Shown one piece after another: positions 33,146 through 34,287 of a DNA stretch of 64,000 nt. Position 1 is the first letter of the stretch. Every line of letters starts with the position of its first letter. The position numbers were made by a program, and so were the translations under genes. The notes below the pieces were generated by a model that was not told where the DNA came from, did not search any database, and saw only the letters and a program-made list of their open reading frames with translations. The stretch is from Candidatus Chloroploca asiatica (GTDB taxonomy: Bacteria; Chloroflexota; Chloroflexia; Chloroflexales; Chloroflexaceae): contig NZ_LYXE01000080.1 in assembly GCF_002532075.1 (NCBI RefSeq), forward strand, positions 1-64,000. The letters run 5' to 3'.

Positions 33146-33358
33146 ATGGACGATCTGCTGCTTGAAGAATACGAACTGTGCGCAGCCTTGCGCACCTGGC
33201 TGGAACAGGCTCCGCCAACCGCGTTTGCGGTCTCGCTTGAACGGCTCAGCGATGGGCGCGTGTTGCTGCGCCCATTACCTGAAGCAAGCCCGGAATTGCT
33301 CGCCCGCCTGCGCATCACGATGGCAAAATATCGTGAAGCGCTGATGAACCTGACCTGA
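33146..33358 (+). CDS. Small protein in front of two Doc-type genes, antitoxin candidate
   Basis: 70 residues. AAGG lies before the ATG; the gene begins 6 bp after aat and ends 5 bp before the first Doc gene. Acidic N-terminus (MDDLLLEEYEL), no membrane segment, and no recognised DNA-binding fold (Phd-type helices not evident). Position is the only evidence for an antitoxin role. Confidence 0.5.
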   Translation: MDDLLLEEYELCAALRTWLEQAPPTAFAVSLERLSDGRVLLRPLPEASPELLARLRITMAKYREALMNLT

Positions 33359-33363
33359 CACCT

Positions 33364-33756
33364 ATGCACTATCTGGACGCAACCGACCTCCTCATTATCC
33401 ATCAAGCGCTGATCGAGCAGTTTGGCGGGATGCCCGGCATTACCGAGGCGGGCTTTGCCCGTCTGCAAGCTGCCGCCGCGACGCCGCAACAAAGCATGTT
33501 TGAGATCGATTTATATCCTGATCTGGCGAGCAAGATCGGGGCGTTGGCCTATGCGCTTATTCGCGGGCATCCCTTTTCGGATGGGAATAAACGAGTTGCT
33601 GTTGTGGCGCTTGACCTGATGGCAACGCTAAATGGGGCGCGTCTCACCGCGAGTAACGACGAGATGTATACCCTGGCGATTGAGGCAGCTGAACATCGCG
33701 CACGTGCCGAGGTCATTGCCTGGGTACGTGAACATCTGATGGTGACAAACGCATGA
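33364..33756 (+). CDS. Death-on-curing (Doc)-family protein 1
   Basis: 130 residues, almost exactly the length of P1 Doc. Motif HPFSDGNKR in the consensus form HxFx(D/E)GNKR; the GNK in place of GNGR marks the Doc class, which phosphorylates EF-Tu in the studied case. N-terminal LDATDLLIIHQALIEQFGG fits Doc family helix 1. The stop overlaps the next start (ATGA). Stand-alone toxins of this class need an antitoxin, and only the preceding small gene is available. Confidence 0.88.
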   Translation: MHYLDATDLLIIHQALIEQFGGMPGITEAGFARLQAAAATPQQSMFEIDLYPDLASKIGALAYALIRGHPFSDGNKRVAVVALDLMATLNGARLTASNDEMYTLAIEAAEHRARAEVIAWVREHLMVTNA

Positions 33757-34166
33757 CCAACCATATTACACTGGGTGATCTGGTAGATATTCGTGACCGT
33801 ATTGCCGTCGATGATCCATGGCGTTTCGAGATCGTCAACCCCTCGGGGTTACTCTCGGCGCTGACGACACCCTTTCAATCCGCCTTTGGGCAAGAATCGT
33901 TTCCCAGTCTCGCTGACAAGGCTGCCGCCCTCGTCTTTCTACTGATTGCGAATCACCCCTTTCGTGACGGCAACAAACGCATCGCTGGCGAGGCGATGCG
34001 GCTCTTTCTCAGTCGCAATGGCCTGGCCTTGCAAGCAACCAGCGAGGATCTTGATGCCCTGACGAGGCTTGCCACGACGACCCACGACCCCCGTGATCAC
34101 GTGCTCACCACCTGGATCATGCAACACACCATGACAGCCCCCCCAGGTGCGCCTGCTGTCCTGTGA
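33753..34166 (+). CDS. Death-on-curing (Doc)-family protein 2
   Basis: 137 residues, with start overlapping the Doc-1 stop by 4 bp. Motif HPFRDGNKR, then IAGEAMRLFLSRNG. It differs from Doc-1 through most of the sequence, so this is not a recent duplication. It lacks the N-terminal Doc-1-like helix pattern (starts ITLGDLVDIRDRIAVDDPWRFEIVNPSGL). The stop is followed by a perfect hairpin at 34179-34225. Confidence 0.85.
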   Translation: MTNHITLGDLVDIRDRIAVDDPWRFEIVNPSGLLSALTTPFQSAFGQESFPSLADKAAALVFLLIANHPFRDGNKRIAGEAMRLFLSRNGLALQATSEDLDALTRLATTTHDPRDHVLTTWIMQHTMTAPPGAPAVL

Positions 34167-34178
34167 CGTGAGACGTAC

Positions 34179-34225
34179 GTTGCCGGGAGGTGTGGGCGGC
34201 TTCGCTGGCGACACCTCCCGGCAAC
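34179..34225 (+). terminator. Terminator after the Doc pair
   Basis: Perfect 15-bp arms GTTGCCGGGAGGTGT / ACACCTCCCGGCAAC with a 17-nt loop. No T tract, so factor-independent termination is not certain. Confidence 0.6.
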
Positions 34226-34287
34226 GATCTACACCCGTCGCCAGATGGGGAATATGTCACAAATCCCGGTTTCGTGCCATAAATCTT

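Follow-up and report, generated by a model that had tools for sequence, protein, structure and literature searches.

Doc is usually studied as a single toxin paired with one DNA-binding antitoxin. In the window, the 64,000-nucleotide stretch of Candidatus Chloroploca asiatica DNA analyzed here, a small gene (S) is followed by two different doc genes in tandem (Doc A and Doc B), which raises the question of what the small gene encodes and whether the two Docs belong together. An earlier note on this sequence had proposed an unusual toxin-antitoxin module, in which both Docs share one antitoxin or one Doc neutralizes the other.

All features of the locus lie on the forward strand. S (33146..33358) encodes a 70-aa acidic, antitoxin-like protein with a net charge of -3, starts 7 bases past the end of the aat stop codon, and ends in a predicted Doc-binding helix (residues 49-69; 33290..33352). 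Doc A (33364..33756, 130 aa) carries the active-site motif HPFSDGNKR at 33568..33594, and Doc B (33753..34166, 137 aa) carries HPFRDGNKR at 33954..33980; their reading frames share an ATGA overlap. When the open reading frames were re-read, the acidic gene, the two doc genes, both motifs, and the overlap were exactly as the earlier note had given them, and the perfect hairpin it reported after Doc B was also recovered (34178..34226; 16-bp stem, -46.5 kcal/mol, z -8). In the two genus-mates, a C-G pair of the stem is exchanged for A-T, a compensatory change, and the hairpin is not repeated elsewhere in the genome. Lacking a T-run, it departs from the textbook form of an intrinsic terminator. 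A 208-aa open reading frame at 31134-31760 matches NCBIfam PRK13668 weakly (54.7 of 221 bits, below the cut-off).

Both Docs match Pfam PF02661 (E 1.4e-16 for Doc A, 4.7e-13 for Doc B) and the NCBIfam family DOC_P1, TIGR01550 (56.1 and 50.9 bits; cut-off 38.65). HxFxDGNKR is invariant in 18 of 18 aligned Doc A sequences, and HPFxDGNKRIA in 20 of 20 aligned Doc B sequences. The aligned motifs of both include the lysine by which Doc kinases can be told from Fic proteins that AMPylate (PMC5651007). Doc A is a canonical Doc with the flap sequence FGGMxGITE, and it matches PDB entry 9vzc_A by sequence only (E 5.5e-11). Doc B is divergent and lacks the GGxxG flap motif. Its fold was assessed on a model of a natural A-B fusion protein, the B half of which aligned to P1 Doc (3dd7) with Z 14.1-14.4, the next rows being at ∼8. 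How the A and B halves sit against each other is not fixed by that model (pTM 0.48), which was made from a shallow alignment, deeper alignments having put Doc B rows on the A half (two were seen, and one was judged from a summary). Doc A and Doc B match larger candidate-defence proteins in PADLOC only partially; these matches were read as a shared Fic domain only. Both proteins are motif-intact Doc (Fic-fold) enzymes, which by analogy with P1 Doc are expected to be kinases, and we infer that they are toxic.

The S protein itself has no match in Pfam, NCBIfam, PADLOC or PHROGs. The statement of the earlier note that the locus has no Phd-type gene holds, as neither S nor its relatives matched Phd/YefM in Pfam or NCBIfam at E values up to 1-5. 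S as a shrunken Phd was dropped, with no Phd match and an AbrB-type profile that fits, and a ribbon-helix-helix (RHH) type antitoxin was rejected at an hhalign probability of only 0.3%. AbrB-type Doc antitoxins matched S at 93-96%: 95.6% with a score of 44.8 for one set (200 column shuffles gave a mean of 9.9 and a maximum of 19.3), and 92.8% for a second, overlapping set. The alignment begins at position 18 of the AbrB profile, past the GNS strand, and the GNS DNA-binding motif is absent from 20 of 20 S sequences; all 20 aligned sequences are acidic. Restricting the comparison to the first 46 residues lowers the match to 17% (score 19.7); the AbrB assignment thus draws on hairpin and helix together and depends in part on the helix. 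An AF2 model of S is a helix-hairpin-helix (pLDDT 82, pTM 0.52), and its comparison with the PDB gave nothing usable and no DNA-binding family (Foldseek best E 1.0, VIA best Z 2.3).

The C-terminus of S was compared with a profile built from 19 C-termini of genes upstream of unrelated single-Doc loci, none of them from S. Within every S, the last 18 residues score highest against this profile, and the C-terminus of the S in the window ranks first among the 476 open reading frame ends of the window. The upstream genes at single-Doc loci have differing DNA-binding parts but a similar C-terminal helix; the former include MazE/AbrB and HTH domains above Pfam cut-offs, and RHH-like and Phd-like ones by weak matches only. 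A shared helix pattern of approximately xxYxxxLxxLA is found in the Doc antitoxins of loci L138, L139, L142, L172, L198, L209, L217, L222, and others, and the C-terminus of P1 Phd does not fit the profile. Taken at the level of sequence profiles, S appears to be related by homology to the AbrB/MazE-type Doc antitoxins and to have lost the first strand and GNS loop, and it would thus be without DNA binding. The antitoxin of Enterococcus faecalis touches DNA through Lys8, Arg10, and Asn14 in its first hairpin (PMC13034048), a segment that S lacks.

The window comes from the Chloroflexales, an order of green filamentous bacteria. Of the 158 genomes searched in the class, 25 have S (E up to 2e-6), and these fall within four families of this order; a profile search of 400 genomes of the phylum gave nothing above background outside the order (best 8e-4). 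A Doc A profile (E < 1e-50), searched in the order only, returned exactly the same 25 genomes. Doc B occurs in those 25 and in three more (G018, G020, and G062), which are incomplete bins with a frameshifted copy or one at the end of a contig. Wherever the genes are linked, their order is S, A, B; Doc A adjoins Doc B in 23 of the 25 genomes, with S upstream, and the two doc genes overlap mostly by 4-29 nt. In G016, S lies ∼1 kb from Doc A with other open reading frames between them. The cultured carriers are Herpetosiphon species, and the complete chromosome of H. aurantiacus DSM 785 has the triad (L135). The earlier note had asked for the co-occurrence of S with doc pairs to be checked, and S proves to be conserved beside the Docs in 25 genomes of four families. 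These counts come from a single order, so the co-occurrences are not statistically independent. Orthologues with the same gene order in four families place the arrangement far beyond chance.

All three genes are under purifying selection. Across S, Doc A, and Doc B of the three Chloroploca genomes, dN was 0-0.04 against a dS of 0.12-0.31, the Herpetosiphon genes had a similarly low dN relative to dS, and dN was well under dS in every gene wherever dS could be estimated. Pairwise identity/distance matrices of the proteins are strongly correlated (r of 0.94 for S/A, 0.93 for S/B, and 0.96 for A/B; 0 of 2000 permutations as high); because the matrices share the species tree, this reflects joint inheritance and not contact. 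In the phylogeny, Doc B forms one clade (100/99) and Doc A another (90/91), which means that the two kinds parted before the families did. The origin of the pair by a single duplication is neither supported nor rejected, as a sister relationship of Doc A and Doc B was not recovered but passed the AU test (p-AU 0.55).

We consider the evidence evenly poised on whether this is a chromosomal Doc module in which an AbrB-derived, DNA-binding-deficient antitoxin, S, serves two Docs that are inherited together and probably function jointly. S would be a Doc antitoxin descended from the AbrB/MazE type, retaining the latter half of the AbrB domain together with the predicted Doc-binding helix. Having lost the DNA-binding first strand and GNS loop, it should neutralize without repressing its own operon. 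Doc A and Doc B would be fixed partners whose joint divergence began earlier than the separation of the families of the order; they probably form a heteromer or act in one shared pathway. By analogy with the E. faecalis complex (9VZC), helices of S could sit on an A-B heterodimer or on each Doc separately. Of the alternatives that the earlier note offered, two Docs sharing one antitoxin is the best reading, given that S is conserved beside the Docs and carries the helix of a Doc antitoxin.

Besides the gap between S and Doc A in G016, what weighs against this module is the relocation of Doc B in G021 and G022, where it lies elsewhere, after metH, and S and Doc A remain together. S-A may thus be the core, with Doc B separate. 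S and Doc A would then be an ordinary antitoxin-toxin pair. Doc B, merely co-inherited, would be a Doc-fold kinase apart from them, controlled separately and with a target of its own, an alternative we regard as rather unlikely. The divergence of Doc B, its lack of the GG..G flap motif of Doc A, and a tree in which A-B sisterhood is not found, though not rejected, are in line with it. On the other hand, Doc B is present wherever S-A is (25/25) and co-diverges with both. Moreover, Doc A and Doc B are joined in one open reading frame in OHK40 (L068, 273 aa) and Prado088 (L074, 275 aa), and these two fusions lie on separate branches of the tree. Elsewhere, at a contig end of Kouleothrix aurantiaca (L077:3558-4199), Doc B is in frame with an upstream magnesium-chelatase/AAA-like stretch, which may reflect a gene fusion or faulty assembly.

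The surroundings of the triad bear on a further alternative, that of a domesticated, non-toxic module in which Doc A and Doc B would be kinases that regulate some housekeeping process, with S as a scaffold or constitutive inhibitor. We judge this unlikely. It accounts for the spread across the order, the strong purifying selection, and the stable sites next to housekeeping genes. Searches of viral and plasmid sequences are also in line with it: a scan of viral_contigs with Doc A returned only eight weak Docs, none in a triad, and one with AbrB antitoxins found nothing; among plasmid records, 292 hold Doc B relatives, all below 60% identity and one of them covering 80% of Doc B, and there is no close plasmid copy. 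Domestication fits less well with the full conservation of both active-site motifs and with the maintained antitoxin-before-toxin order, and the module is missing from many genera and hence not essential. The three genomes of the genus Candidatus Chloroploca are the only ones with aat beside the triad, and in other genera its place is taken by mgtE, metH, a glutamine amidotransferase with an ECF-type sigma factor, or a DUF2357-PDDEXK_7 (PD-(D/E)XK) nuclease. The suggestion that the set is read together with aat in an N-degron role is therefore not supported. In five members of family f3, the triad lies directly 3' of the DUF2357-PDDEXK_7 nuclease gene on the same strand (L078:4997-6613, L079:5196-6845, L082:5176-6813, L086:5140-6804, and L087:1657-3414). 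No neighbour of the triad matched PADLOC, and a link to defence is possible for these loci.

A sister module is also consistent with domestication. Of the 82 genomes of the order, 64 have one copy of an S-like 71-aa protein (MPRSFTIERENLPAVVQGWL...), which matches S at 73% (E 3e-5). At the ten loci read (L092:4005-4624, corresponding to G000:C169:110004-110617 in the genome of the window, and L242-L249 and L251), it lies beside a Doc whose motif is ruined, except that no upstream open reading frame was picked up by the script at L243, where a search found the S-like protein nearby. The motif is ruined in every copy examined (HPFVGANDAT, RPFVSANEAT, QPFQSNNETT, and the like). In the genome of the window, the S-like gene follows a 498-aa open reading frame which we take, by eye, to be lysyl-tRNA synthetase. 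By its sequences, the sister module appears to be a near-universal possession of the order, an antitoxin-like partner with a catalytically dead Doc. Doc A groups with this dead Doc in the tree (94/74, not starred).

It is very improbable that one Doc neutralizes the other, as Campylobacter fetus Fic1 does Fic2 (PMC5651007), and that S does something else. The tandem overlap, the fusions, and the C. fetus precedent speak for it. Against it, the active-site motifs of both Docs are intact, and the search for the inhibitory motif [S/T]xxxE[G/N] gave a single isolated match, in the Doc A of G070. S itself also bears the Doc-antitoxin helix, and this proposal of the earlier note finds no support in the sequences.

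The module of one antitoxin and two Docs can be set beside several known systems. TasAB, a mazE-doc system of Bacillus thuringiensis plasmid pGI1 (PMC1626090), and the AbrB-Fic/Doc pairs (PMC2701414) likewise have an AbrB/MazE-type antitoxin upstream of Doc, with a conserved C-terminus as in S, but they have one Doc per operon and keep the N-terminal GNS DNA-binding motif, the part S has lost. In the closest solved complex, the chromosomal Phd-Doc of E. faecalis (PDB 9VZC), two Docs are dimerized with one antitoxin helix each and their active sites left open (PMC13034048). Its antitoxin is AbrB-like and binds Doc by a C-terminal helix, as is predicted for S, but that complex has a homodimer of one Doc and a DNA-binding antitoxin, whereas two distinct Docs are encoded here. 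Phage P1 Phd-Doc shares the Doc fold, the motif HxFx(D/N)(A/G)NKR, and the upstream small gene, and differs in its Phd domain, of which there is none here, and its single Doc. The fic1-fic2 genes of C. fetus resemble Doc A and Doc B as two tandem, overlapping Fic-fold genes, and their products act on each other; they encode Fic proteins and not Docs, however, with a cis inhibitory helix in Fic1, a degenerate motif in Fic2, and no small antitoxin gene at the locus (PMC5651007). The class I Fic systems VbhA-VbhT and FicA-FicT also combine a small antitoxin with a Fic-fold toxin, but their antitoxin inhibitory motif [S/T]xxxE[G/N] is missing from S (0 of 20 sequences). We found no report of a two-Doc, one-antitoxin module in the open-access literature.

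A more specific form of the shared-antitoxin reading, which we put forward only tentatively, is that Doc A and Doc B are an obligate heterodimeric Doc enzyme under a DNA-binding-deficient antitoxin, and that tandem Doc pairs are a recurrent kind. By analogy, such an enzyme would correspond, with two different chains, to the Doc homodimer that the antitoxin holds together in E. faecalis. Tandem Doc pairs without a small gene occur in three Chloroflexota genomes outside the order: L144:4923-5790 (labelled Anaerolineae), L154:4587-5483 (labelled Chloroflexi), and L196 (G369:C95:3406-4261). In each pair, the C-terminal tail of one Doc agrees with the Doc-antitoxin helix profile and is possibly an antitoxin helix fused to the toxin. 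These Docs form a paired clade of their own (98/84 and 99/89), so the tandem arrangement seems to have more than one origin.

If the reading of one antitoxin and two Docs is true, Doc can act as a fixed pair, with two distinct Docs and an antitoxin without its DNA-binding part, and Doc dimerization would become testable with two different chains. As the set is found in cultured Herpetosiphon, it is open to such testing. With its sister module and the dead Doc therein, the triad would also show how a toxin-antitoxin module becomes domesticated, and the joint inheritance of its genes, with the two Docs fused twice, suggests that toxins usually thought to be single can work as an obligate pair.
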